DNA of 37,095 bases from an uncultured Hyphomicrobiaceae bacterium (GCA_937931785.1 CALHAX010000076.1:1-37095); one strand, 5' to 3'; counted from the first letter of the stretch, positions 14,163 to 37,095 are shown. Numbers and translations are program-made. The notes: a model not told the origin generated them from the letters alone.

Positions 14163-14167
14163 GATAA

Positions 14168-14785: not shown

Positions 14786-14906
14786 ATCAGTACGCCTCAC
14801 AAATCTGATATGGCGCGACCGAGTGTTGTCGCGCGTCAAGCGACAGTAAATAGCAAGCGAGTAAATAAGCCGTTTACGAATCAGAAATTCGCAGTATGCG
14901 TCATGC

Positions 14907-14928: not shown

Positions 14929-15012
14929 ACTTTATATATAGTCACGTTGGAGAGCTGCAGTTTACAGCCCCACAACATGAGATCTGGATTGCGACGGAAG
15001 CGTAGCTGAAAA

Positions 15013-16180: not shown

Positions 16181-16191
16181 TCCACACGCTT

Positions 16192-16209
16192 GATGATCAC
16201 GTGATCATC
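16192..16209. other. 18-bp perfect palindrome after flp
   Basis: GATGATCACGTGATCATC is a perfect palindrome located between the flp stop codon and the flp terminator. It may form a small stem in the 3' UTR or be a dimeric protein-binding site. Confidence 0.5.
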
Positions 16210-16221
16210 GCACAGACGACG

Positions 16222-16255
16222 GGCCGCCTGCTCCTTGGAGCTGGCGGCCTTTTTT
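16222..16255 (+). terminator. Rho-independent terminator of flp
   Basis: The stem GGCCGCC (16222-16228) with GGCGGCC (16243-16249) has an additional inner CTCC/GGAG pairing and is followed directly by TTTTTT. It is a strong intrinsic terminator that separates flp from cpaA. Confidence 0.93.
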
Positions 16256-16408
16256 GTCTCACCGCCGCAGATGGTGCGTCACGCAGGGCTTACAATCGGA
16301 CATGGGATTCAAGGAGCCGCTAATTGGTAACAACTTAGGCCAACGTTTACTTCAACCGACTAGAGTCTGGAAAGTAACAACAGCCCTTCAAGCGACGAGG
16401 ATTCCACC

Positions 16409-16921
16409 GTGCAAGACATTTTGTTGTACGTCGCATTGTGCTTCTTTCCAGGTTTGATCGCCTTTGCAGGTTCCATGGACCTGTTCACAATGACGATCCC
16501 AAACAAGATTTCCCTGGCACTCATTGCAGGCTTTCTGCTGCTTGCACCTTTGATGGGCTTCGGAATTTATGACATCATGATGCACCTCGCGTGCGGTGTT
16601 CTCGTTCTTTGCGTTACAGTTTTCATGTTCGAGATGGGCTGGATGGGTGGCGGAGACGCCAAGATCTTCGCGGCGATCTCTCTCTGGCTCGGGTTCGATT
16701 TTGTAGGAAGTTTCCTTCTCGTTGCCGCCATCGCTGGCGGCGCGCTCACTATAGGCCTGCTCGTGTTCAGAAAAATTCCACTACCGAACATTCTTGAGCG
16801 TCAGGCATGGCTGGCACGTCTGCATCACCCAAAGACTGGTATCCCCTACGGCATCTCAATCTCCTTCGGCGCTCTGGTGGTCTACCCGAACACACCTTGG
16901 ATTCTTGGAACACTAACGTAG
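16409..16921 (+). CDS. cpaA: Prepilin peptidase CpaA (A24 family)
   Basis: CpaA is the inner-membrane aspartyl peptidase that removes the leader of Flp and TadE-type prepilins. The 170-residue product is the short form lacking the N-methyltransferase domain, as usual for Tad systems. The two catalytic Asp are visible: Asp24 in GSMDLFTMTIPN and Asp83 in the GGGDAK motif. Six or so hydrophobic segments are present. The start is GTG 16409 with GAGGA about 9 bp upstream. It lies 150 bp after the flp terminator, so it needs its own promoter or read-through, and it is about 320 bp before cpaB. Confidence 0.93.
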   Translation: MQDILLYVALCFFPGLIAFAGSMDLFTMTIPNKISLALIAGFLLLAPLMGFGIYDIMMHLACGVLVLCVTVFMFEMGWMGGGDAKIFAAISLWLGFDFVGSFLLVAAIAGGALTIGLLVFRKIPLPNILERQAWLARLHHPKTGIPYGISISFGALVVYPNTPWILGTLT

Positions 16922-17241
16922 TGCGTCGCAGCGTTGGTGAATGTGCAATGGGCGAGATACCCTTCAAGCCTCTCGCCGCGCAATGCTCCCAATAGATCCA
17001 GGCACCTGCCTGCTCATCCAGCATTGCGTTCATAGCCTCGCACAGCCCCAGACACGCCCTCGCCGCGCGCTGAATGACTGACATATGTCACGTCGAAGTG
17101 CCTGCCTTTGTGGAATAAAAATCTTCATACGCCACAAACTGTATCAGAATCGAACACCCATTAACTGCACATTGACCTTTGTGTCCGATCATCCAACTCA
17201 ATTCAGTTTGATTGGATGTAGGGCCGAAGGACCCAAAGTGT
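16922..17241. promoter_or_regulatory. Intergenic region upstream of the cpaB-tadC operon
   Basis: This gap of about 320 bp contains no gene I can support. Its last 80 bp are AT-rich and probably hold the promoter of the long assembly operon. TTGACC at 17172-17177 is a possible -35 hexamer with only a weak -10 (AACTCA) 17 bp later, and it overlaps the CtrA-like box. AAGGA, about 11 bp before ATG 17242, is the ribosome-binding site. Confidence 0.4.
17161..17176 (+). promoter_or_regulatory. CtrA-like binding site upstream of cpaB
   Basis: TTAACTGCACATTGAC matches TTAA-N7-TTAAC with one mismatch and lies 66 bp before the cpaB start, overlapping the best -35 candidate. It is the same type of site as that before flp. 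Function is inferred. Confidence 0.4.
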
Positions 17242-18036
17242 ATGAAACGGGCTCGGATTGTCGTCCTTGCAATTGCATTACTTGCAGCAGGCGCAGCAGC
17301 ATTAATCGCAAAGAGTCTCATTGGCGCGAAGCCTGAGACCAAGGTCGTAACCAAGACAGACTACAAGACGTCTGAAGTCCTGGTTGCAAATCTGGATATC
17401 GGACTTGGCGAATCCATCCAGGCCAACGACCTGCGCTGGCAGGCCTGGCCAAGCGACGCCATCACAACCGGCTACATTGTAAAGAGCAAGCGCAACGCGG
17501 CACGCAAGGAACTTTCCGGTTCCCTTGCTCGTGCACCTTTCCTGGCCGGCGAACCGATCAAGGAAAAAAAGTTGATCAAGGCCAATGAAGGTGGCGTCAT
17601 GGCTGCCATTCTGCCAGCTGGGATGCGCGCTATCTCAACGCAAATCGCACCGGAATCTGCGGTTGGCGGCTTCATTCTTCCAAACGACCGGGTGGATGTC
17701 ATCCTGACACGCCGCGATCGCAGCGGAAAGAAAGAGCAGCATGTCAGCGACACGCTGTTTCACAATGTTCGGGTTCTCGCCATCGGTCAGGTGATTGAGA
17801 TCAAGGACAATGAGAAGATTGCAAACGGCAAAACAGCAACGTTGGAGCTGACCCCACGTCAGGCCGAGTCGCTCGCCCTCGCACGCTCAATCGGAGAAAT
17901 TTCGTTGGTTCTTCGCAGCCTGACGGACTCCCGCACGAGCGGTAAGGGAGTTGCCGGCAACGTCATCAACGAACGTTCAAACAGTGTCACGACCTTGCGC
18001 TACGGCGAAAAGGCCCAGGCATTTGGCGTCAAGTAA
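17242..18036 (+). CDS. cpaB: Flp pilus assembly protein CpaB/RcpC
   Basis: The 264-residue protein has one N-terminal membrane segment (RIVVLAIALLAAGAAALIA, about 4-22). A SAF-type domain follows (reads EVLVANLDIGLGESIQANDLRW). The RcpC/CpaB core comes next, including GMRAISTQIAPESAVGGFILPNDRVDV. CpaB is a periplasmic component thought to link the secretin to the inner-membrane machine and possibly to contact peptidoglycan. ATG 17242 is chosen because the hydrophobic segment and AAGGA fit; the TTG at 17212 is less likely. It is the first gene of the seven-gene operon. Confidence 0.94.
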   Translation: MKRARIVVLAIALLAAGAAALIAKSLIGAKPETKVVTKTDYKTSEVLVANLDIGLGESIQANDLRWQAWPSDAITTGYIVKSKRNAARKELSGSLARAPFLAGEPIKEKKLIKANEGGVMAAILPAGMRAISTQIAPESAVGGFILPNDRVDVILTRRDRSGKKEQHVSDTLFHNVRVLAIGQVIEIKDNEKIANGKTATLELTPRQAESLALARSIGEISLVLRSLTDSRTSGKGVAGNVINERSNSVTTLRYGEKAQAFGVK

Positions 18037-18074
18037 TTAAATTCCAGTTTGTAGCTCGTGAGAAGGTCTGAGCG

Positions 18075-19607
18075 ATGAGAAATAAAATGCGTAGTATATG
18101 GACCGCAACGGCAGTGTGCCTGATCGGTCTTCTTGCAACAGGTTTGGGCCCTCATGCCAACCCACTAAAGGCGACGGCAGCCCAGGCTGAAGAAGGTTCA
18201 CAACATAAATCTGTACTTCACGTCTCGGACGCTTCGCTTCCCGCACAGCGTACAGTCCGCATCGCCGTAAACAAGTCGATGATGATCGAGTTGCCGCGCA
18301 CACTGCGTGACGTCGTAATTTCCAATCCGGAAGTCGTTGACGCCGTCGTACAAGCGTCAAACCGCGTCTATCTGATTGCCAAGAAATATGGTCAGTCGAA
18401 CGCATTCTTCTTCGATTCATCGGGTGAAAGAATCCTCGTGCTCGAAATCACGGTGGAAGTGGATTCCGCACCGCTGGCCACGATGTTGAAACGGTTGATC
18501 CCAGACTCGGACATCACGGTCGAAATGCTGAATGACACTGTCGTTCTGTCCGGTTCCGTCATGCGTCCGGCTGATGCCACACGCGCACGTAATATTGCAT
18601 CACGTTTTGTCGTACCTGCAGGCGGCGAGGCTGACACTGTCGCAGTCAACAAAGTTGTCAACCTGATCTCCGTTCTTGGCAAGGAACAGGTGATGTTGAA
18701 AGTCACAGTTGCCGAACTTGAGCGTGAGTCCATCAAACGTCTTGGCGTGAAATGGGGTGCAACCTCTGGCAGACTGAACTTTGGAACCAACACGGCGTTT
18801 CCTTTGACAAACGGTTCAGGGGCCAACAATTTCCTCACAGGCATAGCTGGAGGAAACTGTAATGGTATCGCAACCGTTGTTGCCGGTGGCGCCGCCGCTC
18901 TCACACCAGGGGGCACAGCAACGCTTCCAAATGGACTGAGCTGCCTTCAGCAAAGCGTAGAAGCCTTCGAACGTCACGGCCTGCTACGCACTCTGGCTGA
19001 GCCATCACTCACGGCAATTTCCGGTGAGACGGCCAGCTTCCTTGCAGGTGGTGAGTTCCCTGTTCCTGTCGGCCGGGATGAAAACGGCATCACGATTGAA
19101 TTCAAGCCCTTCGGCGTCGGACTGTCCTTCACACCTTTCGTGATGTCCGCGAACCGGATCAGCCTGAAAATCAACACCGAAGTCAGTGAACTCTCCAATG
19201 AGGGCGCAATCCAGGCAGCCGGTATTTCCATTCCAGGCCTGAAAGTTCGTCGCGCCTCGACTACGGTTGAGTTGCCGAGTGGTGGATCGATGGTTTTGGC
19301 TGGATTGATCTCTGACGACACACGTCAGAACATCGACGCACTTCCCGGTCTGCGCAAGCTTCCGATCCTTGGAACTCTGTTCCGCTCACGGGACTTTTCC
19401 AAGCAGGAAACGGAACTGGTCGTGATCGTAACGCCCTATGTCGTCAAGCCGACAGCACGCAAGGATCTGGCTCGCCCAGACGACAACTGGCTGCCAGCAT
19501 CTGACAACAAAGCAAACTTCCTTGGACACATGAACCGGATTTACGGCCGCGAAGATGCCGTACCGGCTGGTGATTACAAGGGCGACGTCGGTTTCATCAT
19601 TGAGTAA
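18075..19607 (+). CDS. cpaC: Outer-membrane secretin CpaC/RcpA
   Basis: CpaC multimerises into the outer-membrane channel of the Tad pilus. The 510-residue product has a signal peptide (about 1-38). An N-terminal pilus domain (reads RTVRIAVNKSMMIELPRTLR) and a BON-like segment follow. The C-terminal secretin domain includes LAEPSLTAISGETASFLAGGEFPVPV and the LPILGTLFRSRDF motif. A Gly/Ala-rich insert at about 240-300 contains two cysteines that could form a disulfide. AAGG lies upstream of ATG 18075. It is second in the operon, 38 bp after cpaB. Confidence 0.95.
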   Translation: MRNKMRSIWTATAVCLIGLLATGLGPHANPLKATAAQAEEGSQHKSVLHVSDASLPAQRTVRIAVNKSMMIELPRTLRDVVISNPEVVDAVVQASNRVYLIAKKYGQSNAFFFDSSGERILVLEITVEVDSAPLATMLKRLIPDSDITVEMLNDTVVLSGSVMRPADATRARNIASRFVVPAGGEADTVAVNKVVNLISVLGKEQVMLKVTVAELERESIKRLGVKWGATSGRLNFGTNTAFPLTNGSGANNFLTGIAGGNCNGIATVVAGGAAALTPGGTATLPNGLSCLQQSVEAFERHGLLRTLAEPSLTAISGETASFLAGGEFPVPVGRDENGITIEFKPFGVGLSFTPFVMSANRISLKINTEVSELSNEGAIQAAGISIPGLKVRRASTTVELPSGGSMVLAGLISDDTRQNIDALPGLRKLPILGTLFRSRDFSKQETELVVIVTPYVVKPTARKDLARPDDNWLPASDNKANFLGHMNRIYGREDAVPAGDYKGDVGFIIE

Positions 19608-19630
19608 CTGGTGACAAGAGGAAAAGAATT

Positions 19631-20377
19631 ATGTTTGTATCCAAGTACACATCCAGAACTGCCAGTCGCAGCAAGTCGCCTCTGTCAGTCATTTTGACCA
19701 CTGCCACTGTGGCAGCCATCGGACTGAGCGGTTGTCGCGGACATACGGCAGGGTATTCCCAGCTTCGTGGCACCGTTATTGCCGACCCAAGTGCGCGCCA
19801 TCCGATCTCGGTGTCCAAGGCACCAGTTCAGATGGACATCGAGGTGCCGCACGGTTCATCCGGCCTGACCCGGTCGCAATCATCGCGCCTGAAGGCTTTC
19901 GTTGCACGCTTTCGTTCTGAAGGCGAGGGACAGATTATCGTCTCTGCACCAAGCGGGGGGCGCAACGAATACGCGATCGTGAATGCAGTTTCCAATGTAC
20001 GCCACGTTATTCATGGCGCGGGCATTTCAGGGCATGCCATCAGCATGGAACCATACTACGTCGGCGGCAACTCTGACGCACCCATCAAGGTTTCCTTTAC
20101 GACTCTTGTTGCAAAAGGTCCTGACTGTGGCCGTTGGACAGAAAACCTCGGTGACTCGGATCGGAATACGAACCATGGAAACTTCGGTTGCTCGCAGCAG
20201 CACAACCTTGCCGCCATGGTTGCCAATCCAAGGGATCTCGTAAGTCCGGGGCATCTCGATCCCCGCTCAGCAAGTCGACGCGATATCCTGGCCGACAAAT
20301 GGGCCAAAGGCGAAACGACAGGTGCACAGAAGTCTGAAGAAGAACGTTCAGGCTCAATCAGTGAGGTTGCGAACTAA
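19631..20377 (+). CDS. cpaD: CpaD-family pilus lipoprotein
   Basis: The 248-residue product has a signal sequence ending in a lipobox (IGLSGC, lipidated Cys35). A CpaD domain follows, with the RLKAFVARFRSEGEGQIIVSAPSG segment, then a cysteine-containing region (CGRWTENLGDSDRNTNHGNFGC) common to CpaD homologues. The last 40 residues are charged and probably disordered. It likely acts as the secretin-associated lipoprotein in the outer membrane. GAGGAAAAG lies just before ATG 19631. It sits between cpaC (23 bp) and cpaE (2 bp), indicating translational coupling to cpaE. Confidence 0.92.
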   Translation: MFVSKYTSRTASRSKSPLSVILTTATVAAIGLSGCRGHTAGYSQLRGTVIADPSARHPISVSKAPVQMDIEVPHGSSGLTRSQSSRLKAFVARFRSEGEGQIIVSAPSGGRNEYAIVNAVSNVRHVIHGAGISGHAISMEPYYVGGNSDAPIKVSFTTLVAKGPDCGRWTENLGDSDRNTNHGNFGCSQQHNLAAMVANPRDLVSPGHLDPRSASRRDILADKWAKGETTGAQKSEEERSGSISEVAN

Positions 20378-20379
20378 AT

Positions 20380-21792
20380 ATGAGCAACGTAGCTTATACT
20401 CCTGAAGTAGCGGATCTTGAAGAGGACCGGGTTGAACCGGTCCTTGCCGCCCCTTCCATTGAGACAGCGCATCAAGCGCCCATCGACGAATTTGCGGCGC
20501 CTGCCCCACAATTCGATGAATCAAGTTCCGTTGACCCGTTGGCTGCACACGCAGCAGGCGTCGTCGTGGAAGAGAATCCTGAACGGGCACGTCCTATTCC
20601 ACGCATTTCGATCCAGGCATTTTGTCAGGATCAACGCACTGCTGAATGTTTGCAATCGGCCTCAGGGGATCGGCGCCTTGCCAAGGCTCACGTCTCTGTC
20701 CATCTCGGTGGCACGGCAGCAGCGCTTGCAAATTTTCAGGATGCTCCGACCCCCAACCTGATCATCATTGAATCCATGCAGGCCCGTGAAGGTATGCTGG
20801 CCGAACTCGATCAACTGGCTTCTGTATGCGATGCAGGCACAAAGGTCATTGTCATTGGCCATGTCAACGATGTGATCCTCTATCGCGAGCTTCTGCGTCG
20901 TGGTGTGAGCGAATATATCGTCGCGCCTGTGACCGAGCTCAAGGTTATGGAGAGTATTTCCAACCTCTACAATGACCCTGAAGCGGACCCGGTCGGTCAT
21001 GTCTACGCGTTTGTAGGCGCAAAGGGCGGCGTCGGATCGAGCACAATCTGCCATAACGTAGCCTGGTCATTGTCCCGGGAACTCAAAAATGATGTGGTGA
21101 TCGCCGATCTTGATCTTCCATTTGGCACAGCAGGTCTGGACTTCGACAAGGATCCTGTTCAAGGCATTGCCGACGCATTGTCTTCGCCAGATCGACTTGA
21201 TGAAGTGCTGCTCGATCGTTTGCTTGCCAAATGCACGGAACACCTGAGCCTCTTTGCTTCACCTGGCACTCTTGATCGTGATTACGACATTGCGCCGGAA
21301 GCCTATGAGTGGGTGGTTGATGTCGTACGGCAGAATGTGCCGTACGTCGCGGTTGACATGCCTCATCTGTGGACTCCTTGGAGTCGTCAGCTTTTGACGC
21401 AAGCAGATGAAATCGTCATCACGGTCGCACCTGATCTGGCAAACCTGCGGAACGCCAAGAACCTCGTTGACTTGCTCAAGGACCGGCGTTCCAATGATAA
21501 TCCTCCGCATCTGGTCATCAATCAGACCGGCATGCCAAAACGCCCTGAAATTCCTGCAGCAAAATTCGCAGAAGCACTCGGGTTGACGCCTGCTTGCGTC
21601 ATAGAATTTGACGGCGAGAGTTTTGGAATGGCGTCGAACAACGGCCAGATGATCGGTGAATTCGCTGAACAGGCGCGTGCGGCAGAGCAAATGCGGAACC
21701 TCGCACTGCGTCTCGTGAAACGTCCTGAGCAGGTGATTGAACCAACGTCGAAACTATCGCCATTCCTCGACAAATTTAAAATCAAGAAATAG
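20380..21792 (+). CDS. cpaE: Pilus assembly ATPase CpaE/TadZ (MinD/ParA-like)
   Basis: CpaE/TadZ places the Tad machine in the cell, often at a pole. The 470-residue protein has an acidic, Pro/Ala-rich N-terminus (about 1-70). A receiver-like domain follows (about 75-200, reading TPNLIIIESM and later VIVIGHVNDVILYRELLRRG). The C-terminal ParA/MinD ATPase has a deviant Walker A (GAKGGVGSST, about 212-221) and DLDLPFGTAGLDFD as its Walker A' region. The receiver shows no clear phosphoacceptor arrangement, as usual in TadZ. It overlaps the operon context closely (2 bp after cpaD). Confidence 0.94.
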   Translation: MSNVAYTPEVADLEEDRVEPVLAAPSIETAHQAPIDEFAAPAPQFDESSSVDPLAAHAAGVVVEENPERARPIPRISIQAFCQDQRTAECLQSASGDRRLAKAHVSVHLGGTAAALANFQDAPTPNLIIIESMQAREGMLAELDQLASVCDAGTKVIVIGHVNDVILYRELLRRGVSEYIVAPVTELKVMESISNLYNDPEADPVGHVYAFVGAKGGVGSSTICHNVAWSLSRELKNDVVIADLDLPFGTAGLDFDKDPVQGIADALSSPDRLDEVLLDRLLAKCTEHLSLFASPGTLDRDYDIAPEAYEWVVDVVRQNVPYVAVDMPHLWTPWSRQLLTQADEIVITVAPDLANLRNAKNLVDLLKDRRSNDNPPHLVINQTGMPKRPEIPAAKFAEALGLTPACVIEFDGESFGMASNNGQMIGEFAEQARAAEQMRNLALRLVKRPEQVIEPTSKLSPFLDKFKIKK

Positions 21793-21804
21793 GGACGTAC
21801 GCAG

Positions 21805-23307
21805 ATGTTTGGCAAGCGAAACACAAGCGGTGGCGGTGAGCTGAAACAGGTCACCCGTCCGGAACCTGCTGCACCAGTGGCGGCAACACAAGCACCTGCG
21901 CCCGTTGCTCCGGCGGCCCCCGCCGCCGCAGCTCCTGTTCCTCAGGCACCTGTTGCACCAGCACCGACACCAACGCCACCTCCTCCGGTAGCGGTCGAGA
22001 AATCAGTGCCTCGACGGTCAGAGGAATATTACGACGTGAAGACGACGGTCTTCAACGCCTTGATCGACACCATCGACCTGACACAGCTTGCGCAGCTTGA
22101 GCAGGAAGCCGCACGCGAAGAAATTCGAGACATTGTCTCGGAGATTATTCAATACAAGAACGTTGTGATGTCCATCGCAGAGCAGGAAGAACTGCTTGAG
22201 GACATTTGCAACGATGTGCTCGGTTATGGCCCTCTTGAGCCACTTCTGGCACGCGACGACATCGCCGACGTGATGGTCAATGGCGCCGAACGCACATTCA
22301 TCGAAGTCGATGGCAAGGTGCAACTTACCGGCGTGCGGTTCACCGACAATTCGCAACTCATGAACATCTGTCAGAGGATTGTGAGCCAGGTCGGTCGACG
22401 GGTCGATGAATCAAGCCCGATCTGTGATGCGCGTTTGCCAGACGGTTCACGCGTCAACGTGATCGCGCCACCACTCGCGATCGACGGCCCCGCGCTGACC
22501 ATTCGGAAATTCAAGAAGGATCGGTTGACGCTACAGCAACTCGTCAACTTCGGTTCGATCACACCAGAAGGCAAAACGATTCTGGAGATTATTGGTCGGG
22601 TTCAATGCAACATCCTGGTCTCGGGCGGCACAGGTTCCGGGAAAACAACGCTCCTCAACTGTTTGACAGCGTTCATCGATCAGGACGAACGGATCGTAAC
22701 CTGTGAAGACTCGGCCGAGCTGCAGCTTCAGCAACCGCACGTCGTGCGCCTCGAGACCCGCCCGCCAAACCTCGAAGGCGAAGGTGAGATCACAATGCGC
22801 GATCTCGTGAAAAACTGCCTCCGGATGCGGCCTGAACGAATCATTGTTGGTGAGGTGCGTGGCCCGGAAGCATTCGATTTGCTGCAAGCCATGAACACGG
22901 GCCACGACGGATCAATGGGTACGTTGCACTCGAACAGTCCACGTGAGGCCTTGAGTCGGCTTGAATCCATGATCATGATGGGTGGCTTTGCCCTCCCCAT
23001 CAAAACAATTCGCGAAATGATCACCGGCTCCGTCGATATCATTGTCCAGGCAGCGCGTCTCCGCGACGGTTCACGCAAGATTACGCACGTAACCGAGGTT
23101 ATGGGCATGGAGGGGGATGTGATCACACTACAGGATCTGTTTCTCTACGATATTCAGGGTGAAGACGAGGACGGCAAGCTGATCGGTCAGCATCGCTCTA
23201 CCGGAATTGCACGACCAAAATTCTGGGATCGCGCGACATACTTCAAGGAAGAAGGCCGTCTCGCAGAAGCACTGGCCGCATCCGAGCAACGTCAGCAGAA
23301 CACATAA
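21805..23307 (+). CDS. cpaF: Tad pilus secretion ATPase CpaF/TadA
   Basis: CpaF powers Tad pilus extension and retraction. The 500-residue product begins with a Pro/Ala-rich linker (about 20-68, many APAPVAP runs) typical of CpaF. The T2SE ATPase core follows, with Walker [10 protein letters not shown] (about 274-282), the Asp box [20 protein letters not shown] and Walker [11 protein letters not shown], and then a His box [12 protein letters not shown]. It would act as a hexamer on the cytoplasmic face with TadB and TadC. It starts 12 bp after cpaE. Confidence 0.97.
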
Positions 23308-23323
23308 GCCACCGGAGATCCGA

Positions 23324-24319
23324 ATGTTTAGTCATGAAGTCATTCAGCTTTCCGTTATCGTACTTGCTGCGATAAGTGTTGGCTTGATCGCATATGTCGT
23401 TGCGTATCCATTTCTCTCTGGAGAGAAAAAAGCTGAAAAGCGCACGGCCGAAATCGCAACGCAAAGCCGACGGTCTGGCTCTGTTCGTACATCCGACGCA
23501 GACAATCTTGTCCACCGCAAAAAGCAGGTGCAGGATTCGATGCAGGAGATCGAACGCAAGCAGAAAGCCAAGGGCAAGGTTACGCTGCGCACCCGCCTGG
23601 AACGCGCCGGGCTGGATCTGACTCCGCAAGCCTTCTACATCGGCAGTGTTGTCCTTGGTCTCGGTCTGGGACTTGGCACGTTCATCATGGGCGCACCCAT
23701 TGCCGCTGCAGCCGGTGCAGGATTCGTGGGCACGCTTGGTCTGCCGCGCTTCCTGGTGAACAAGAAAACCCAGATGCGCCAGAAGAAATTCATCAATGAA
23801 TTCGCCAACTCGATTGACGTGATTGTGCGCGGTGTAAAATCCGGTCTTCCACTCAACGAGTGTCTCGGCATTATTGCCCGTGAGGCACCGGAGCCGGTGC
23901 GGTCCGAATTCTCGGAACTTGTGGAACAACAGCGCATCGGCATTCCACTTTCGGACTGCTTTGACCGGATGATGCACCGCGTGCCTCTTCCCGAAGTCAA
24001 CTTTTTCGCCATCGTGATCTCGATTCAGAGCCAGGCGGGTGGTAATCTCGCCGAAGCACTGGGCAACCTGTCAGAAGTCTTGCGCACGCGCAAATCGATG
24101 GCCGCAAAGGTCAAGGCGATGAGCTCGGAAGCCAAGGCCTCCGCCGGCATACTTGGATCCTTGCCGTTTGCTGTCATGGGCATGGTGCATCTGACGTCTC
24201 CAAACTACATCTCGTTGCTGTTCACGGATCGGATGGGAAATTTCCTCCTTTTGTGTGCCGCTGTATGGATGACCTTTGGCATCCTCACCATGAAAAAGAT
24301 GATCAACTTCAAATTCTGA
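23324..24319 (+). CDS. tadB: Tad pilus inner-membrane platform protein TadB
   Basis: The 331-residue protein has a GspF-type domain (PF00482 pattern: FANSIDVIVRGVKSGLPLNECL, then EAPEPVRSEFSELVEQQRIGIPLSDCFDRM). It is flanked by hydrophobic segments at the N-terminus (about 5-28), at about 108-140 and at the C-terminus (about 285-325). With TadC it forms the platform engaged by the CpaF ATPase. ATG 23324 has GGAG about 8 bp upstream. An in-frame start at 23207 lies inside cpaF and lacks support. There are 16 bp to the cpaF stop. Confidence 0.95.
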   Translation: MFSHEVIQLSVIVLAAISVGLIAYVVAYPFLSGEKKAEKRTAEIATQSRRSGSVRTSDADNLVHRKKQVQDSMQEIERKQKAKGKVTLRTRLERAGLDLTPQAFYIGSVVLGLGLGLGTFIMGAPIAAAAGAGFVGTLGLPRFLVNKKTQMRQKKFINEFANSIDVIVRGVKSGLPLNECLGIIAREAPEPVRSEFSELVEQQRIGIPLSDCFDRMMHRVPLPEVNFFAIVISIQSQAGGNLAEALGNLSEVLRTRKSMAAKVKAMSSEAKASAGILGSLPFAVMGMVHLTSPNYISLLFTDRMGNFLLLCAAVWMTFGILTMKKMINFKF

Positions 24320-24379
24320 TCCACGAGACCCTTGTCTCGCGGCCCAGCAGTACAATCTGGTTCAAGGACGAATAGAAAC

Positions 24380-25354
24380 ATGCAGGCGATCATTAACACC
24401 GTTACCGATCCACGCGTCCTCTTCATGGCGTTGATCGGCGTCACGACGTTCCTGACAATTGTCATGATTGCGCTTCCGGCCTTGTCCCGCGATCAGGCCA
24501 ATAAACGCATGAAGATCATGGCACTGGAACGCGACAAGATGCGTGCAGCCCGGATCAATGACCTGAAAACAGAGGCCGCAGGCGGCAGCCTGCGGAACGA
24601 GAGCAAAGGCACGCTCGCACAGATCGTCGACCAGCTTAATCTCCGAAAGATTTTCGAGTCGGAAGACCTCGGGAACCTGATGAAGATGGCCGGTTTTCGA
24701 GGACAGCGACCGCTCGTTATCTTTTTCTTCTTCAAGCTGGCAACCCCCATCATCGTATTCCTGATGACGTTCGCATACATGTTCTTTGCGTACGAAGGCG
24801 AGATGATCCCGCTGATCAAACTCGCAATCTCGATTGGCGCCGGTTACATCGGTTTGTACCTGCCGACGGTGTTCGTGAAAAACATCATTCAGAAACGTCA
24901 GGATTCGATCAGAAAAGCGTTCCCGGATGCACTCGACCTGCTGCTCATCTGTGTGCAATCGGGCATGTCCGTCGAAGCGGCATTCGGCAAGGTATCTCAG
25001 GAAATCGTCGCACAGTCGCTTGAGCTGGGCGAGGAGCTGACATTGACAACTGCAGAGCTGTCCTACCTGCCAGAGCGCCGCCAAGCATTCGAAAACCTCG
25101 GCAAACGCACGGGCCTGCCAGCAATCAAAGCTACAGTCACAGCACTGATTCAGGCCGAACGTTACGGAACACCAGTCAGTCAGGCGTTGCGTGTCATGGC
25201 CAAGGAAAATCGCGACATGCGGATGTCCGAAGCAGAGAAGAAAGCGGCGGCCTTGCCTCCGAAACTGACGGTCCCGATGATTGTCTTTTTCCTGCCCGTA
25301 CTTTTCATCGTCATCCTCGGCCCCGCCGCCATCCGCGTGAGCCGGTCGCAGTAA
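24380..25354 (+). CDS. tadC: Tad pilus inner-membrane platform protein TadC
   Basis: The 324-residue GspF-domain protein is a paralogue of TadB. It has an N-terminal hydrophobic segment (LFMALIGVTTFLTIVMIALPAL) and a central membrane pair near 120-170. The GspF segment reads FPDALDLLLICVQSGMSVEAAF, and the C-terminal helix reads VPMIVFFLPVLFIVILGPA. The motif ERYGTPVSQALRVMAKENRDMR is typical of TadC. AAGGA precedes ATG 24380. It is the last gene of the cpaB-tadC operon and is followed by a strong terminator. Confidence 0.95.
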   Translation: MQAIINTVTDPRVLFMALIGVTTFLTIVMIALPALSRDQANKRMKIMALERDKMRAARINDLKTEAAGGSLRNESKGTLAQIVDQLNLRKIFESEDLGNLMKMAGFRGQRPLVIFFFFKLATPIIVFLMTFAYMFFAYEGEMIPLIKLAISIGAGYIGLYLPTVFVKNIIQKRQDSIRKAFPDALDLLLICVQSGMSVEAAFGKVSQEIVAQSLELGEELTLTTAELSYLPERRQAFENLGKRTGLPAIKATVTALIQAERYGTPVSQALRVMAKENRDMRMSEAEKKAAALPPKLTVPMIVFFLPVLFIVILGPAAIRVSRSQ

Positions 25355-27706: not shown

Positions 27707-29155
27707 ATGCCCGATAAAGATATCTATAAAACGGCTCAACGCGCCGCCGAAAGCATTATTCCGTCGAGCGCAAGGACAAGCACCATCCCCATCACTTTGG
27801 CGTCATCCACGTCAAGTCGCAGCAACCTTTCAGATCTCACAAGCGCGCAACGTACATTTCTGAAATCATCCGGATTCAATTTTGCTGCCGGTGATTTCAT
27901 CCTTCTGACAGATGAAAAAGGAGATATCGCACGTGTCGTGTGCGGGATCGATGGGCCGTCGAGCTTCTCTTTGACTGACAATGGGGCCGACGCGTCTTCA
28001 TGTTTCTTCGCAGGAACCTTGGCATCCAGACTCCCACAAGGTGATTACAACTTCGCGTCTGATATGCCGAACGCAGCACTTGTGGCTCAGGCCTGGACTT
28101 TGGGATCGTACAATTACGACCGATATAAATCAGACTCGGCTCCCGTCAAACGACGCCTGAAACCAGGCAAGTCCGTTGATATTGACAGGGTTCGCGACAT
28201 CACAACGAGCGTATTTCTGGGGCGGGACCTCATCAACACGCCGGCCAATGATCTCGGCCCTGACGAACTTGAAGCGACAGCACGAAGTCTTGCCAAGGCC
28301 CATGCCGCTAAGATCTCGGTAATCACGGGCGATGATCTTCTCAAAAAGAACTTCCCGATGATTCATGCCGTCGGTCGCGCAAGCAACCGCCCCCCGCGTC
28401 TGATTGACATGCAGTGGGGGAAAAAATCGAACCCGGCCATAACTCTTGTCGGCAAGGGAATCGTATTCGACACGGGTGGTCTCAACATCAAACCCGGCAG
28501 CTCGATGACCCTCATGAAGAAAGACATGGGGGGCGCTGCAACAGCACTCGCAACGGCAGCCATGATCATGAGCGCCGAACTGCCGGTTCGGTTGCGTGTG
28601 CTCCTGCCAGTTGCAGAAAACAGCATTTCGTCAAACGCCTACCGACCCGGCGATGTGCTTGAAAGCCGCAACGGTATGACAGTCGAAATCGGCAATACGG
28701 ACGCAGAAGGCCGCCTTGTCCTCGCGGATGCACTGGCCCTTGCCGACGAAGATAAACCAGACGCTCTGTTCTGTTTCGCAACACTGACCGGCGCAGCCCG
28801 CGTCGCACTCGGCCCCGACCTGCCTCCGCTGTACACCTCAACGGATGCGCTGGCAGATCAGATCCTCGCAGCGGCCAATGCCGTTCACGATCCCCTGTGG
28901 CGCATGCCGTTCTGGGCCCCGTACGACCAGACTTTGCATAGCGCCGTAGCGGACGTCAGTCATATTTCCAATGGTCCTTTTGCAGGCTCCGTGACCGCCG
29001 CGCTGTTTCTCAAGAGGTTTGTAAACAATACGGACAACTTCGCCCATATTGACCTCTATGGCTGGGTTCCTGTCGCGAAACCCGGATGTCCAAAAGGGGG
29101 CGATCCGCAAGGCGCGCGAGCAATTTTTGAATGGGCCCGACAGAACTACAAATAA
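27707..29155 (+). CDS. Leucyl aminopeptidase family protein (M17)
   Basis: M17 enzymes are cytosolic, two-metal aminopeptidases. The 482-residue product has the non-catalytic N-terminal domain (about 1-170) and the C-terminal catalytic domain. The metal/substrate motif VGKGIVFDTGG lies at 248-258 (Lys250 and Asp of FDTGG). A KKDMGGAA segment follows, and then the family signature NTDAEGRL at 330-337. All expected ligands are visible, so it should be active. GAAGGTG upstream supports ATG 27707 rather than TTG 27692. The NlpC/P60 gene follows after 14 bp. Peptides released from murein are plausible substrates. Confidence 0.94.
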   Translation: MPDKDIYKTAQRAAESIIPSSARTSTIPITLASSTSSRSNLSDLTSAQRTFLKSSGFNFAAGDFILLTDEKGDIARVVCGIDGPSSFSLTDNGADASSCFFAGTLASRLPQGDYNFASDMPNAALVAQAWTLGSYNYDRYKSDSAPVKRRLKPGKSVDIDRVRDITTSVFLGRDLINTPANDLGPDELEATARSLAKAHAAKISVITGDDLLKKNFPMIHAVGRASNRPPRLIDMQWGKKSNPAITLVGKGIVFDTGGLNIKPGSSMTLMKKDMGGAATALATAAMIMSAELPVRLRVLLPVAENSISSNAYRPGDVLESRNGMTVEIGNTDAEGRLVLADALALADEDKPDALFCFATLTGAARVALGPDLPPLYTSTDALADQILAAANAVHDPLWRMPFWAPYDQTLHSAVADVSHISNGPFAGSVTAALFLKRFVNNTDNFAHIDLYGWVPVAKPGCPKGGDPQGARAIFEWARQNYK

Positions 29156-29169
29156 GACAGGCAATAAAG

Positions 29170-30021
29170 ATGGAGCAGAACAGCCCAGATCCGCGATTGA
29201 ACGCCTTTCGAAGCGATCTTGCAAATGCAGCACTTCGAAATCAGGTCAAAGCCACCAGCTATGTCGATGGCCAGACAGCGCAACTGGCCGCGACAGCACC
29301 GGTTCGCAAATCTCCCTCTCACGACGCCATGTTGCTCACTCAAGGTCTGAGGGGCGAAACCGTACAACTGTTTGAATCATCGAGTGGCTGGGCATGGGTG
29401 CAACTTCAGCGTGACGGATATGTTGGATATGTGCCCACTGACACGCTCGCACCAGGCATCTCGTTCGCAACACATGTTGTTACCTCGCCCAAGGCACTCC
29501 TGTTTCCGGCTCCCGATCTCAAGACACCACCTATAGGGTGTTTCTATCTCGGTTCTGAAATCACTCTTGGAGCCCCAGACGGAGAATATATTTCCGTTGC
29601 GGGTGGTGGCTATGTTCACAACCGCGCCGTAGCTCCAACCATGACAATCGCTCACGACTACGTCTCAGTAGCCGAACGATTTCTTGGCGTACCGTACCTC
29701 TGGGGCGGCAAGACCGCGGATGGCATTGACTGCTCAGGTCTTGTTCAAGTCACCATGCAGGCATGTGGCAAAGAATGCCCACGCGATAGTGACATGCAAA
29801 TGGCAGAAACCGGAACATCAATCGGAACAGATACCAGGCCTGAATTGCTGCGCCGTGGAGATCTGGTATTTTGGGATGGTCATGTTGGCATCATGCTGGA
29901 CGAACATCGTTTGCTCCATGCCAATGCGTGGCACATGGAAACAGCAATCGAGCCGGTGAGTGAAGCCGTAGAACGCATCGAAGCATCAGGGAATGCTGTA
30001 CGCGATGTTCGGCGTCCATAA
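29170..30021 (+). CDS. SH3-NlpC/P60 cysteine peptidase (C40)
   Basis: The 283-residue product lacks a clear signal peptide. It carries two SH3b-like regions (about 30-150, reading GETVQLFESSSGWAWVQLQRDGYVGYV) and a C-terminal NlpC/P60 domain. The catalytic residues are Cys188 (GIDCSGLVQ) and His238 (WDGHVGIM), with a third polar position His250 (LLHANAW). The layout resembles YkfC-type gamma-D-glutamyl-L-diamino acid endopeptidases that degrade murein peptides. ATG 29170 lies 14 bp after the M17 stop, so the two are one unit, consistent with peptidoglycan recycling. It converges with the outer-membrane protein gene. Confidence 0.92.
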   Translation: MEQNSPDPRLNAFRSDLANAALRNQVKATSYVDGQTAQLAATAPVRKSPSHDAMLLTQGLRGETVQLFESSSGWAWVQLQRDGYVGYVPTDTLAPGISFATHVVTSPKALLFPAPDLKTPPIGCFYLGSEITLGAPDGEYISVAGGGYVHNRAVAPTMTIAHDYVSVAERFLGVPYLWGGKTADGIDCSGLVQVTMQACGKECPRDSDMQMAETGTSIGTDTRPELLRRGDLVFWDGHVGIMLDEHRLLHANAWHMETAIEPVSEAVERIEASGNAVRDVRRP

Positions 30022-30066: not shown

Positions 30067-33000
30067 CTATAGCTTGCCGACGAGGTTGAAAAAGATACCG
30101 CTATCATCGAACGTCTGGTCCGCGAGATCATCCGAAAATTCGCCGAAGTTGTATCCAACACCCATTTTCACGTTCTCTCCGACATGACGGTAAATCGCTG
30201 CCAGGAATCCGGTTTGCGTAGTTTTAAGCTCCGGTGTGCTGAGAACACGTGCTTCCAGCAACACGTCCCAGTGCTTCACAACATGCGCATCAAGGCGCAA
30301 TACGCCAAGATGCGCTGACGACGACACGAACGTATTGGAATTCCGACTGACAGAGACTTCTCCATACCGTGCGCCGTACTTGCCGCCCAACGTGATGTAA
30401 TCGTTCATCTGATAGGATACATCTGCCGAGATAATATGACTACGTTGCGCAGGACCGTTTGTACTCCCCGAAGCGTTCACCTGATCGATACCAGGCAAGT
30501 CATAGAGATAGGTGTACTTGAACAACGCATTCCAGTCATCGTTGTCGATCGGTCGGTAAGCTGCTCCAAGTGACGCTTCTACATAATCTCCGTCAAGAAT
30601 GTCCGCCTGATTGGAGTTCGAGAATGCTGCGTCAAGATTAGCGAGCAGACGCCAGTTCGGATTTTGCTTCACCTTGATACCGGTACTGATCAGGTACGTA
30701 TCGCGATCCTTCGTTCGGTCTGTTGAATTCTCAAACCGCGCCTCACCTTTCAGTTTCCAGGCGATCCGCTCTTTCTCCACATATGAAACGGACGAGGAAA
30801 GAGCCACACGTGAAATTTCCTGGCCTGCGCTGTCCTGCACATCGCCATACTCGATCCCGCCATTGACAACCCAAAGCGCTGACGGCGTGTAAGTTACGCC
30901 ATACGTCGTACCGAGCGTGCGTTGTCGCCCGAAGATATCGTAGCTGTTCTCGGCATAACCAGACAGCGTATCGGTATAACGTGTCTTCGCCCCGATAACG
31001 ACGTTCCCAAGGTCAGTGCCCTGTAGCGACGTGGCTGTAGAAAGTGAACGCTCCGGATCAAGTCGATAACCTGCATAGTAATGATCATCCGGAGTCTTGT
31101 CGTACTTCACACCGGCAAGCGCACCCCAGCCAATACTTCCGTTCGACACTTCACCCTGTAGCCAGATTTTTTCCGTAACACGAACTTCAGCACCAGCCCC
31201 GATGCGGTCATTCACACCAATATCTTCGCTCTTCCCCACGGTGCCATGAGCGAAGGCATAAGCTTTCAGGTCATCATCACGCTGATAGGTGAACCGCAGT
31301 CCAATGTCATTCCGGGAGCCTTCCCCTTTGATCTGACGGTCGTTGCGAACGCGCGTATGCTTGAACCCCAAACCAACCGTGAAACCAGGGACAAACTCGA
31401 ACTCGACCTCAGCATCGCCTTGACGCCGATGAACGCCACCCGCATCCTGAAAATCTTCATAGTGAAAGAGGTAGCGGAATCCATCTTCGATTTCGATGTC
31501 CGCATGCGCCCCGATCGTCTGTTGAGTGACAGAGGTATTGTAATCAATCGAAGAAAATCCTGCTTCGCGCTTGTCGTAGTAAGCACCAACGGATCCTCGA
31601 AGCGTGTCGCTCATGTCTGAGAGGTCGACTTTCAACTCTCCCCGTCCGGCGAACGCCTTCGTTCCGCGCAACCCTGCGGTCAAAGTCTGATCAGTGGTCA
31701 AACCACCGTTTATGGATTCCGATCGACCAAATCCCGGTCCTTCACTCCGTGCTATTTCACCATGAAGGTAGGAATTCTTTCCAAGTTGAAGCCGCAGATC
31801 GGCAGCAACCAGTTTCTGGTCGACAGGTCCACTTTCTTCCTTGATCGCAGTTCCACCGAGTCGCAGACCATCGAGGATCCACGCCTGCGCACGGCCGCCG
31901 TAGGAGTAACCATCCGTATCACCCAGTGCCGGTGTATATTCGTACTGGACAACGAGGCTTTGTGCATCGTCGCCAAGTGGGTTGTTCTGCACAATCGGCC
32001 CACTGCGAACTGTTGAGTTCAGTGGCTTGTCCAGAATGATAACGCCCTGAATATAGTCAATCTGGTAATCCGCACCATAGGCCAAAGCGCGTCGAGATCG
32101 AACAATGCGCGTAATGGGGTCGCGAACTTCAATCGTAACTGTTTCCGAGCCACGCGTGATGTCCTGCCTGGACAGGAAATAGGCTGACCCACCTGTACCG
32201 CGAAGGATGTCGCGCTGAGGCAGGGTGCCAGGCTGGGACGCATAGGCCTCAGCTTCGTATCGCCGCTCTCCGTACGACGTTGTGTCTTCCGAGCGGTGTC
32301 GCACGTGCGCACCGTAAAGTCCGCGTTCGTTCCGCGCAAACTCCGTACCAGAAATCGTAGTCTTGAAGTTCCCCCAGAGAACATGACTATCACCACGTTC
32401 AAGGCGGACATAGAACTTACCGTTTGTAGGAGCATCCTCTGTAATTTCCGAGTCGTCCCCATACACTGGATAATATTTGTCTGGATCGATCCGCCGTAAC
32501 AATTGGCGAGGATCTTTTGAGTCCAGTCCCCTGAAGATATTTTCAAGATCATCTTCCTGCGTATCGGCAGCCGCTGTCAGGAGGTAGCGTCCGCGAACCT
32601 TGCCCTTCAGATAGAAAGCCAGACGTCCTTTGGCATAAACCCGCTCGAACTCGCCAGGCTCCGTTTCGCGCAACGCCCGGTCACCAAAGCGGCGACCAGC
32701 CGTTAGGTCAGCGAGGCCTACGTAGAACCATTCGTTGTCCGGAATGTGGATATCGCGAGTGATCGCCACATCATTCTCGTGTGGATCCGCAACACGAACA
32801 TCGATCGCATGTTGCCCTGGCGGCAGAATTTGCTGAGAAACAAATGCTCCATCACTATCCACGGGAATTGGCCGACCCATGGCAAACGCACTGGCTCCAG
32901 GCGGCACGTTACGCCCGTAGACCGTGACCGCACCGCCATAAACTGGAATATTTCTCTTCGCAGTGCGATCTTCACCATCACCAGCCGAGACCAGTTCATC

Positions 33001-33699
33001 TGGCGATGTCCGATGAGTTGGCAACTCTCGAGATGTCCGTGACAAAGTCAGAGGTACGGTTTCGTCATACCGCCCGAGATGATCCAGTACGCGCAATACG
33101 TAAGTGTAACGACCACCACCGTCCTCAGGCATGGTCCAAACGGCACGTCCACGTGTCACCGGAATGATCTGGATCGGTGTATCGTTGAGTTTCCGACCTA
33201 CTTCCGTGATATGGACTTCAGCGCGCTCGATCCAACCCGGATAGTTCGTCGTGGCAACAAACGTGATTTCTTCTCCAGCTCCAAAGCTGTGACGTAAATC
33301 TATCGTTGCAACGTTCAGCATCGGCTTGACGCCGAGACCATCAAATTTCACTTGCAGGTCAACATCATTGAGGTCCACGTCAGCGCGGCGCTGCGCATCA
33401 GCAGACGTATCATTATCTGACTTGACCTCATGAACATGATGTCCACGCTTCGGCGCACTACCGGCAATACGATTTCCATCAACACTGATTGAAAAACCGC
33501 CAGCACCAGGATCGTCTTCCCCTGTGAGATCCTGTTCCGTGTTCCGTCCGACAGGAATATCCGTGACACCACGCAGATCCGCCACAGCAATGGCATCAGA
33601 TGCCACAGCTTCTGACAAAAATGCCATCGCAAGCCCGGTCGTGAGCACTAGCGCGAGGACAGTCGGCGCGGTTGTCTTGTATGTTCTGGACATTTTCAT
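30067..33699 (-). CDS. Large exported protein with Ig-like N-terminus and outer-membrane beta-barrel
   Basis: The 1210-residue protein has a signal peptide (about 5-34, TVLALVLTTGLAMAFLSEAVA). An acidic linker follows, then beta-sandwich-like modules (about 125-320, including TTNYPGWIERAEVHI and YVLRVLDHLGRYDETVPL). The remaining 850 residues or so are alternating-hydrophobicity strands with turns, as in a large outer-membrane barrel. The barrel region includes VVIGAKTRYTDTLSGYAEN and VSYQMNDYITLGGKYGARYG, and the chain ends in a strand, GIFFNLVGKL. No TonB box or plug was recognised, so calling it a TonB receptor is not justified. It is 3 bp downstream of the repeat-protein gene, implying coupled synthesis and a joint role. 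The barrel call is inference from composition and strand pattern. Confidence 0.72.
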   Translation of the reverse strand: MKMSRTYKTTAPTVLALVLTTGLAMAFLSEAVASDAIAVADLRGVTDIPVGRNTEQDLTGEDDPGAGGFSISVDGNRIAGSAPKRGHHVHEVKSDNDTSADAQRRADVDLNDVDLQVKFDGLGVKPMLNVATIDLRHSFGAGEEITFVATTNYPGWIERAEVHITEVGRKLNDTPIQIIPVTRGRAVWTMPEDGGGRYTYVLRVLDHLGRYDETVPLTLSRTSRELPTHRTSPDELVSAGDGEDRTAKRNIPVYGGAVTVYGRNVPPGASAFAMGRPIPVDSDGAFVSQQILPPGQHAIDVRVADPHENDVAITRDIHIPDNEWFYVGLADLTAGRRFGDRALRETEPGEFERVYAKGRLAFYLKGKVRGRYLLTAAADTQEDDLENIFRGLDSKDPRQLLRRIDPDKYYPVYGDDSEITEDAPTNGKFYVRLERGDSHVLWGNFKTTISGTEFARNERGLYGAHVRHRSEDTTSYGERRYEAEAYASQPGTLPQRDILRGTGGSAYFLSRQDITRGSETVTIEVRDPITRIVRSRRALAYGADYQIDYIQGVIILDKPLNSTVRSGPIVQNNPLGDDAQSLVVQYEYTPALGDTDGYSYGGRAQAWILDGLRLGGTAIKEESGPVDQKLVAADLRLQLGKNSYLHGEIARSEGPGFGRSESINGGLTTDQTLTAGLRGTKAFAGRGELKVDLSDMSDTLRGSVGAYYDKREAGFSSIDYNTSVTQQTIGAHADIEIEDGFRYLFHYEDFQDAGGVHRRQGDAEVEFEFVPGFTVGLGFKHTRVRNDRQIKGEGSRNDIGLRFTYQRDDDLKAYAFAHGTVGKSEDIGVNDRIGAGAEVRVTEKIWLQGEVSNGSIGWGALAGVKYDKTPDDHYYAGYRLDPERSLSTATSLQGTDLGNVVIGAKTRYTDTLSGYAENSYDIFGRQRTLGTTYGVTYTPSALWVVNGGIEYGDVQDSAGQEISRVALSSSVSYVEKERIAWKLKGEARFENSTDRTKDRDTYLISTGIKVKQNPNWRLLANLDAAFSNSNQADILDGDYVEASLGAAYRPIDNDDWNALFKYTYLYDLPGIDQVNASGSTNGPAQRSHIISADVSYQMNDYITLGGKYGARYGEVSVSRNSNTFVSSSAHLGVLRLDAHVVKHWDVLLEARVLSTPELKTTQTGFLAAIYRHVGENVKMGVGYNFGEFSDDLADQTFDDSGIFFNLVGKL

Positions 33700-33702
33700 C
33701 TC

Positions 33703-36700
33703 TTAACGCCCCCCAACGATCTTGGTTTCGACGTTGAGTGGAAGGTCGCCTGCCGTGCGTCGCCAGTTTTCATTTATGACACCGGTGATGTGCCGAAGTC
33801 GTTCCAGTGCAAGTTTCCGGTCATATGTCCGCGTGTGATAGGTGATCCTCAAAATGGAAGGCTCACCGGTGTTCATCTCGGAAACCAGTTTGCGGATACC
33901 CCGCAGCAGGCTCTTGTGAGGTTCAACGCTGTCCACCCGGAATGCTTTCGCGTTCAGGTCGACGCGAACCACACGGGAAATCGATGCACCAAAGTTCAGC
34001 TTGGTGATCTTGCCACGTGTCAAACGCACGACACGTGGATTTTCCGAAGTCATCCTGTAGCCACTTGGAAGTGTGCGCGTGTCAAGCTTGAGAATGAAGT
34101 TCGAACCAATCTTGGCATCCGGGATCGCGGCACACGGGACATGAAAACGACCATGCTTGTCAGTCGTGATCAAGAGGCCCTTGACCGATGCAACCCGCAC
34201 ACCTGGCAGCCCAGGCTCACCCTTGTTCTGATATCCATTCCTGTCCAGATCATCAAAGACCTTGCCAATCACCTCGCCACAATCGAACACATGCTCGATT
34301 TCGCGGCGAACAACGGCGCGGCCAATGCTGGATATTCTCCGTCCAGAGACCGGGTCCTCGATCCACGCCAGGTTAACAAACCGATCAGCCGTTGCCCCTG
34401 CACCAACACCGAGCAGGAACGTCACCGTGATCCGAGAGCCCGGAGCAAACGTCTGATTTGCCCACACGAGGCGTCGCCCAACCTGCGCTGGTTCCGTCGC
34501 AACACCATTCACGATCGCCGTACCAGGCCGGTAAGTGAAGCCTACTGGCAGGAAGTCCGTGATATTGACGTTCACCCGCGGAAAAACATCCGGATTGGCG
34601 ATCGTGATGGTATACGGGATGACATCGCCAATACGCGCAGTCGCACGCCCCGCAACCTTGCTTACAATCAGACCACCGCGTCCATTTGGTGAATTAAGTT
34701 CCACATCAGCTGTACCGTTGGCCTGAGGGATCGGACTGCCATCAAGAGGGGACGCTCCACCAGCCACCACAGTGTTTGTGAAGACGCCAGTACTGAGCAC
34801 AGGCGAGATGTCAACAACATACTCGAACGTTGCAGACTGGTTTGGATCAAGGTCGTAGCCGGAGCCGACCACATTCTGGTCACCAGCTCCATTGAACCCA
34901 CCATTCGGTGTGACGACGGCACCGCCCGTTACAGCAACTGTGGTGATGCTGACAACATTGTGACGACCTGCTCCAAACACCGAGTTCAGATCATCGGTCA
35001 AAATCACATTCCGGATCGGCACGTCACCAGTGTTCCGTACAGTAGCGTGATACGTCACACGACTATCACCATTCGGCTGCGTATCAGGACCAGCAGCAAC
35101 GCGTTTGTTGGTCGCAATTTGCGGTGGCGCGCAGAATTGCAGTGGAATGTTATTGTTGAACAGGCTTGGGTCGCCAGCCTCAATATCAAACTCGTTGAAG
35201 AACGGGTTGCCACCAGCAGTGAAGTCGGAGAGCTGTCCAGTATTCTGAATTTGTCCTCCACCAAGAACAGCAGGGTCTGTCGGCAGGAACGTTGTCAGGT
35301 CAAGAGCCGAACCAGCTGTACGCGTAGTGCTCGCAATACCTGTTGAAGGCAAAACATAACTCAGTGTGTAACGCCCAGGTGCGGAGACAAAGAACTGATA
35401 GTCCCCCTGTGCTCCATCCCGAACAATAGTGATGTTGCTGCTTGTCCCGATACCTGTCTGGGTTCCAAGCGGTCCTGTAACAGAGATCTGTCCACCCGTG
35501 AGGATTCGACCGTTTTCCTGGCAGTAGAAGTAACCTGTAGGATCATAATCATCCCGATCACTCACTCCGTCTCCATCACGATCCACAGTGTCGGATTCAT
35601 TGGTATCTGGCGCACCATCCTGATCCTGATCCTGTACAGGATCGGGGGTTGGGTTGGTATCGTTCGGATCTCCTGGTGTCACAACAGGAGCATCAGACTG
35701 AACGGGAACGGGTGTCTGATCTGACCGACCAAACGCCGTATTGCCCTGGCCCTCTGGCGCGTATCCAGAACTGAAGTTCACCCGAAGAGTGATCGTTATC
35801 GTACCGACTTGTGCTGGAGAAAGCGTAGCAGCACCGCTGATCAACTCATTTGAACCCGTTCCATTATAGCTCCCATCCACAGCTCCACCGGTAAACCCGG
35901 CAAGCGTCACTGTCGGTGTGCCAACAACGATTCCCGGTGTCAGCGCGGCAGCGAGATCATCTGATACGCGAACATTAGTCTGCGTTACGTTGCCAGTGTT
36001 CTCAACATCAATCCGATAAACGAGATCGTAGATATAAGGGAATTGCTGCGTGACGGAGACAAGTTCCTTGTCAAGGTCAAGCTCGGGCGCACCAATCAAT
36101 GGCGTTGCCGTTGGATCATCATTACCAGCGGTTGGTGATGTGTCATCCGATCGGTCTGTGATGGCCGGACCTGCAGGCGGTGTGCCCGTGGCCGCCGCTT
36201 GGTTTGAGACGCCACCACCATCTATATCAGCCTGATCGATGGTGTAAGTCGCTTCAAACACAACCGTGTCTGATCCGACGCGCAAATCTATAATGGATGG
36301 ATTGCCGCCAACGTTGCTTCCACCCGAAACGTAAGTCGGAGTAGGCAGTCCACCTGTGCCCGTGAAGTCGACCGCGCTTTCAGAGACACCAATATCAGTC
36401 AGCGTAACGTTGCCGGTGTTCGATACCGTATACGTGTAGGTAATCGTATCGCCAACACCAAGCCGCCCATCAGGACCAAGGTTGACGTTCGACGTTTTGA
36501 CGAGCCCGATACCAGGAGTGCGCACCAATGTAGTGCTTGTAGGATCGTCCGCCCCAACGATCGTGCTGGTATCATCCGACAGATCAGTCACGGACGCGCC
36601 CGTGATTGGGGATCCGGTCGCCGTAGCCTGGTTCAGCACACCACCGTTGTCGATGTCATCCTGTGTGACCATATAGTTCGCTGTGAACACGATCGTACCT

Positions 36701-37095
36701 GCACCCACCGCAAGGTCCGCAGCGTCAGCATCTCCGTCAAGATCCGCCCCACCTGAAACATAGATCGGAGCAGGGAGTGTGCCGGAGCCAGTAAATGTGA
36801 TGGCCGACTCAGTCACAGCCACATCGTTCAACGTCACGTTGCCTTCGTTACTTGCTGTATAGGTGTAGGTAATAATGTCCCCAGCGTTGAGCGCCCCGTC
36901 AGGCCCCATATCGATCACGGACGTCTTGACCAGTGCTATGCGAGGCGTTCCGACCAGTGCTGTTGTTGTCGGGTCATCCTGTCCGGCAACTGTTGAGCTT
37001 TCGTCCGAGTTGTCTGTTACGGGGGCACCGTTGCGTGGTGTGCCTGTGCTCGTGGCCCGGTTTGTCACACCGCCGTTGTCAATATCCGCCTGCGT
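33703..37095 (-). CDS. Giant repeat surface protein: DUF11-like, SdrD-like and OmpA-like modules (5' end outside window)
   Basis: The frame is open to the right edge (the first codons there read [12 protein letters not shown]), so this is the C-terminal 1130 residues. Modules from N to C: at least two and a half repeats of about 142 residues (each with LVKTS-x5-GPDG, TYTYT-x-SNxGNVTL, VSGG and DNGGVxNQA), and a related DUF11-like domain ([10 protein letters not shown]). An Asp-rich Ca-binding-like linker ([14 protein letters not shown], 35540-35690), two more DUF11-like domains and an SdrD/CNA-B-like module ([19 protein letters not shown], near 34200) come next. The last segment of about 90 residues resembles an OmpA-like fold. 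Such proteins are surface stalks or adhesins. The downstream barrel gene follows after 3 bp. Confidence 0.8.

Follow-up and report, generated by a model that had tools for sequence, protein, structure and literature searches.

The described systems closest to the proteins discussed here are Gram-negative fibrillar adhesins with DUF11 (CLIPPER) stalks, such as B9T28_05395 of Acinetobacter silvestris (PMC12617251; PMC10952558). They have an N-terminal adhesive end, an Ig-like stalk and a C-terminal OmpA-like anchor. DUF11 and DUF7507 (CLIPPER_2) are families in which Lys-Asn isopeptide bonds form with the assistance of an Asp, and a DUF11 crystal structure is known from a Gram-negative adhesin with a terminal OmpA-like anchor (PMC12617251). 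Only the stalk is described in these papers, and the words 'outer membrane' and 'barrel' are absent from both main texts. Recent surveys of these adhesins do not cover how up to 6000 residues pass the outer membrane. In the CdrA/CdrB two-partner secretion system, adhesin and barrel are adjacent, and the C-terminus of the adhesin is held in the barrel with the adhesive end outside (PMC7616799).

The window analysed here, 37,095 nucleotides from an uncultured Hyphomicrobiaceae bacterium, is the entire contig C76 of a 3.66-Mb genome. An earlier note on this DNA reported two very large minus-strand genes separated by 3 bp, and this observation is confirmed: both are open frames, with the gene for a repetitive stalk protein upstream of that for a predicted barrel protein. 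Homologues in other genomes are 40-60% identical across nearly the full length, and these are therefore real genes. The stalk frame runs off the end of the contig, so that its 1130 residues are a lower limit. Its features are as follows.

33703..37095, minus strand: stalk gene, C-terminal 1130 aa, 5' end lost at the contig end
36613..36948, minus strand: DUF7507 (CLIPPER_2) Ig repeat, candidate isopeptide residues Lys57, Asp91, Asn155
36154..36519, minus strand: DUF7507 repeat, candidate isopeptide residues Lys200, Asp234, Asn298
35536..35640, minus strand: Asp-rich calcium-type linker read from the sequence, residues about 486-520, DQDQDG... stretch at 489-516
34357..34671, minus strand: DUF11 (CLIPPER) domain, residues 809-913
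33958..34221, minus strand: conserved C-terminal junction module, SdrD_B-like, ...TTD..GR.HV...GSNF.LKLD.RTLP.GYR.T.ENPR..RLT.GK..KLNFGA
33706..33972, minus strand: degenerate OmpA-like domain at the stalk C-terminus, residues 1042-1130, weak profile match

Pfam identifies five stretches of DUF7507 (E 2e-61) and five of DUF11 (E 2e-18), followed at residues 945-983 by an SdrD_B-like module that scores below threshold. Together with the Asp-rich linker, this agrees with the tandem Ig-like repeats and calcium-binding linker proposed earlier. The Lys/Asp/Asn order expected from the residue roles given in PMC12617251 is present in two of the repeats, and by this pattern they are candidate isopeptide-forming domains. 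In the definition of Monzon & Bateman, a fibrillar adhesin is a long protein with stalk domains in tandem, an N-terminal adhesive domain and a cell-surface anchor, which is OmpA-like in Gram-negatives. The DUF7507/DUF11 repeats are stalk domains of this kind; among complete relatives, the shortest has 740 aa (L056) and the longest 6195 aa (Sulfitobacter plasmid pSG53).

Because the window stalk lacks its N-terminus, an adhesive head could not be seen. One relative (L085) has a GEVED adhesin-type N-terminal region, and the stalk of a paralogue has a DUF6923 domain. On another contig of the same genome (G000; C3:45438-45914, equivalent to L104:3439-3915) there is a 159-aa frame with a signal peptide and a DUF11-like sequence, which also runs off its contig end. 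It stops at '...TTSQAD', a repeat phrase that also opens the window stalk ('TQADIDNGG'), and is probably the missing N-terminus. Upstream of this frame are genes for a response regulator and for a sensor kinase.

The features of the partner gene are as follows.

30067..33699, minus strand: barrel-protein gene, 1210 aa, predicted partner outer-membrane barrel protein
33601..33699, minus strand: Sec signal peptide, residues 1-33, cleavage site placed by eye
32734..33372, minus strand: two Ig-like domains, residues about 110-222 and 250-322, Glucodextran_B in three relatives
31960..32727, minus strand: most conserved region, residues 325-580, with YPVYGDDS, GTGGSAYFL, GSE.VTIEVRD and G.DYQIDY.QG
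30070..31908, minus strand: predicted beta-barrel, modelled with about 33 strands, whose C-terminal motif GIFFNLVGKL resembles the BAM beta-signal

The earlier description of Ig-like modules followed by a long strand-rich region is matched by the signal peptide, the two Ig-like regions and 29 amphipathic segments within residues 581-1210, compared with 9.9 +/- 2.6 (maximum 18) when alignment columns are shuffled. In most relatives the C-terminal residue is F or Y. The region 325-580 is shared with distant single-chain relatives; a suspected likeness of this region to SprA is not supported at the sequence level, where its profile matched no SprA chain in the PDB.

AlphaFold2 was run on residues 575-1210 with a three-sequence input, and generated about 33 long antiparallel strands (pLDDT 67, pTM 0.45). 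The PDB matches of this model listed by Foldseek and VIA-align are all membrane beta-barrels (rmsd 9-16 A), including LptD, TonB receptors, FimD/PapC ushers, LamB, AlgE and mitochondrial VDAC/TOM40; the usher pores have Z 14.8-17.1, as with other large barrels. That the listed matches are exclusively membrane barrels supports the class, but not the exact size or closure of the barrel. The strand-rich region is thus predicted, with moderate confidence, to be an outer-membrane barrel, as the earlier note had supposed.

No family was found for the 1210-residue protein at the curated cut-offs of Pfam or NCBIfam, and the only match in a PDB profile search with the whole barrel family was KdgM (E 0.012). 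Neither the protein itself (E up to 1) nor any of 29 relatives (E up to 0.01) gave a POTRA, ShlB/FhaC, usher, DUF560 or autotransporter profile. This sets it apart from the chaperone-usher pathway (usher profile) and from type 11 (Slam) secretion (DUF560 profile).

A large barrel could also be a nutrient receptor of the TonB type, for which the stalk would act as an accessory binding protein. RefSeq names several relatives 'TonB-dependent receptor', the fold matches above include TonB receptors, and at a Phyllobacterium locus the pair is followed by genes for a siderophore-interacting protein and ExbB/ExbD/TonB. Despite the name, no TonB plug or receptor profile was found in the protein (Pfam and NCBIfam, E up to 1) or in the 29 relatives (E up to 0.01), which is the outcome that the earlier note had taken to speak against an ordinary receptor. 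An ExbBD neighbourhood was not seen at the other annotated loci, about 33 strands are predicted rather than 22, and the stalk is a fixed partner. We therefore regard a receptor function as very improbable.

The AlphaFold2 model of the full-length barrel protein, also from three sequences, has a pLDDT of only 40.5. Its top weak matches are the Deinococcus SlpA/SDBC envelope barrels, with LptD also present, and given the low pLDDT they were used only as an indication of barrel-like hairpins. They might suggest that the assembly is not an adhesin but a periplasmic structure, or a scaffold that resembles an S-layer or spans the envelope, and the OmpA domains described below would be compatible with envelope tethering. 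The SlpA/SDBC matches come, however, from this low-confidence model; stalks of highly variable length, up to the 6195 aa noted above, are ill-suited to the periplasm; and adhesin-type domains occur in related stalks (GEVED, and CshA_NR2 in PMC12617251). There is in our view only a slight chance that the scaffold interpretation is correct.

The pairing itself is well conserved. A large stalk gene lies directly upstream of the barrel gene in 31 of 32 loci, with a spacing of -4 to +68 bp (median -4). The exception, L047, has the reverse order, with the stalk 45 bp downstream of the barrel. Strong matches to the junction module and full-length matches to the barrel occur in the same 23 of 398 Proteobacteria genomes and in no others, although in one of these (G259) the barrel match is a fragment at a contig end. 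Weaker matches to either profile represent the distant single-chain group and were left out of this comparison. The hypergeometric probability of identical sets is 8e-38 on the assumption of independent genomes, which they are not; the 23 genomes cover about 11 families. The divergences of stalk and barrel partners are correlated (r = 0.77, permutation maximum 0.32), as would be expected from linked inheritance alone. Chance neighbourhood is ruled out, and the co-occurrence for which the earlier note proposed a search is thus borne out.

The same genome contains a second pair, on contig C73, in which a 1578-aa stalk with a signal peptide overlaps a 1218-aa barrel at ATGA. The second barrel is 61% identical to that of the window. 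Downstream of the genome's second pair, at L003:18128-20000, is a repeat-rich frame with a GGxGxD-type calcium-binding stretch. By tblastn, the barrel was also located on 25 plasmids (at least 80% of the length in 20) from members of the Alpha-, Beta- and Gammaproteobacteria, where it is often annotated as 'TonB-dependent receptor'.

No relative of the pair was found in phage records; further scans of viral contigs for homologues gave one match only and no new contig, and PADLOC detected nothing. The L085 pair (758-7825 and 7794-11570) is on an IMG/VR contig, from a viral collection, on which the proteins at 13144-19193 look phage-tail-like by eye.

The two proteins are in some cases fused. 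In L045, a relative from the same order, a single chain of 2079 aa (5' cut) runs from DUF11 repeats through the junction module and an OmpA-like domain into the barrel, and the stalk and barrel parts are not separated by a signal peptide. L068, L070, L071, L072 and L082 are single chains as well, and in more distant relatives of 1600-2400 aa one chain has the stalk-type domains in its N-terminal part and the barrel in its C-terminal part. On the reasoning commonly applied to gene fusions, the C-terminus of the stalk adjoins the N-terminus of the barrel protein. Both ends of outer-membrane barrels are normally periplasmic, so the junction is probably located in the periplasm, as probably are the two Ig-like domains of the barrel protein. 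An Acinetobacter haemolyticus plasmid, p4 (L087), has several short DUF11-type genes, then a single-chain stalk-barrel gene, and after it one gene for OmpA and another DUF11 gene.

OmpA domains, mapped with a profile of canonical members, are repeatedly found at this junction. In L058-L061 and L063 they stand at the C-terminal end of the stalk, and in L008, L049, L054, L055 and L057 at the N-terminal end of the barrel protein, with up to three in tandem. In the single chains L067, L068, L070, L082 and L083 they separate the stalk from the barrel, and in L009, L064-L066, L076 and L077 they are encoded by the next downstream gene. The junction domains of these relatives are canonical, whereas the window protein has only a weak match: the 89-residue C-terminal domain of its clade matches OmpA with hhalign probabilities of 78% and 71%, and a PDB search with the profile of this domain gave no significant OmpA match (3td3, E 0.75). 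Whether this degenerate domain would bind peptidoglycan is doubtful.

On the basis of these observations, we hypothesise that the pair consists of a fibrillar adhesin, stabilised by isopeptide bonds, and a dedicated outer-membrane barrel that serves as both its anchor and its translocator, and we consider this reading fairly likely to be correct. Both proteins would reach the periplasm via Sec. BAM would insert the barrel protein into the outer membrane, with the N-terminal Ig-like domains of this protein on the periplasmic side. The Ig repeats of the stalk, stiffened by Lys-Asn isopeptide bonds, would cross outwards through the barrel or with its help, while the junction module and OmpA-like domain would remain at the periplasmic mouth, bound to the barrel and to peptidoglycan. 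We infer export through the barrel from the constant partner, the order of domains in the fusions and the fact that no other secretion gene travels with the pair; the orientation, with the N-terminus out and the C-terminus in, and the adhesive role of the stalk are likewise suggested rather than observed. The anchoring role is better supported than the export role, and the earlier note's proposal that the barrel anchors or threads the stalk has partial support.

The barrel might be solely an anchor, with the stalk exported by another system, for example by type II secretion or along some general pathway. The junction OmpA domains indicate anchoring as such. Other secretion genes do not consistently travel with the pair, though, and the single-chain fusions and constant pairing most simply fit a dedicated route, so that we consider separate export unlikely.

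The simplest account, by analogy, is that the anchor-translocator pair works like CdrA/CdrB or a split autotransporter, while being unrelated to them by sequence. As in CdrA/CdrB, adhesin and barrel genes are adjacent; retention of the C-terminus would be a further likeness. Two-partner secretion nonetheless differs in having a ShlB/POTRA profile and 16 strands, as against about 33 predicted here, and Pfam finds no haemagglutination/TPS domain in the complete stalk relatives L003 and L085 (the window stalk being without its N-terminus). Classical (type Va) autotransporters resemble the single-chain relatives, since L045, L068, L071, L072 and L082 have passenger and C-terminal barrel in one chain; the window pair, in contrast, is split into two genes, gives no autotransporter barrel profile and has OmpA-like and Ig domains at the junction. 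LapA-type (type I) adhesins, which are characterised by a C-terminal RTX/T1SS signal and no Sec signal peptide, differ in that complete stalk relatives, judged by eye, begin with a signal-peptide-like sequence and end in a junction/OmpA-like module. The domain content therefore upholds the earlier claim that the system is unlike two-partner secretion or LapA.

Adhesins resembling the stalk were known already. The barrel partner, which here accompanies every stalk examined, and the conserved pairing are apparently new, as no description of them was found in open-licence papers. A fixed barrel partner would explain how giant stalks cross the outer membrane. More tentatively, plug-less and very large barrels (about 30 or more strands) could constitute an undescribed export family for the secretion and anchoring of isopeptide-linked stalks, with junction OmpA domains as the tie to peptidoglycan, and that exists in two-gene, three-gene and single-chain forms in Alpha-, Beta- and Gammaproteobacteria; this wider proposal is possible, but we hold it with less than even confidence. 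In current annotation the barrel partner mostly goes by 'TonB-dependent receptor' or 'hypothetical protein', and our reading would correct a widespread annotation. As a two-gene system, it is simple enough for laboratory testing.

It is worth adding that the earlier note had related the pair to nearby Flp pilus genes. These form a real cluster, located as follows.

17212..25354: Flp/Tad cluster, with TadE-like genes at 13527-14917

The whole locus, 13527-25354, encodes the TadE-like proteins, RcpC/CpaB, a secretin, CpaD, a T2SSE ATPase and two T2SSF proteins. A functional connection of this cluster to the pair is not supported, because the neighbouring genes differ among relatives, and we do not count the cluster as part of the system. 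Closer to the pair, at 29131-30021 and convergent with the barrel gene, lies a gene for a peptidoglycan hydrolase with SH3 and NlpC/P60 domains.
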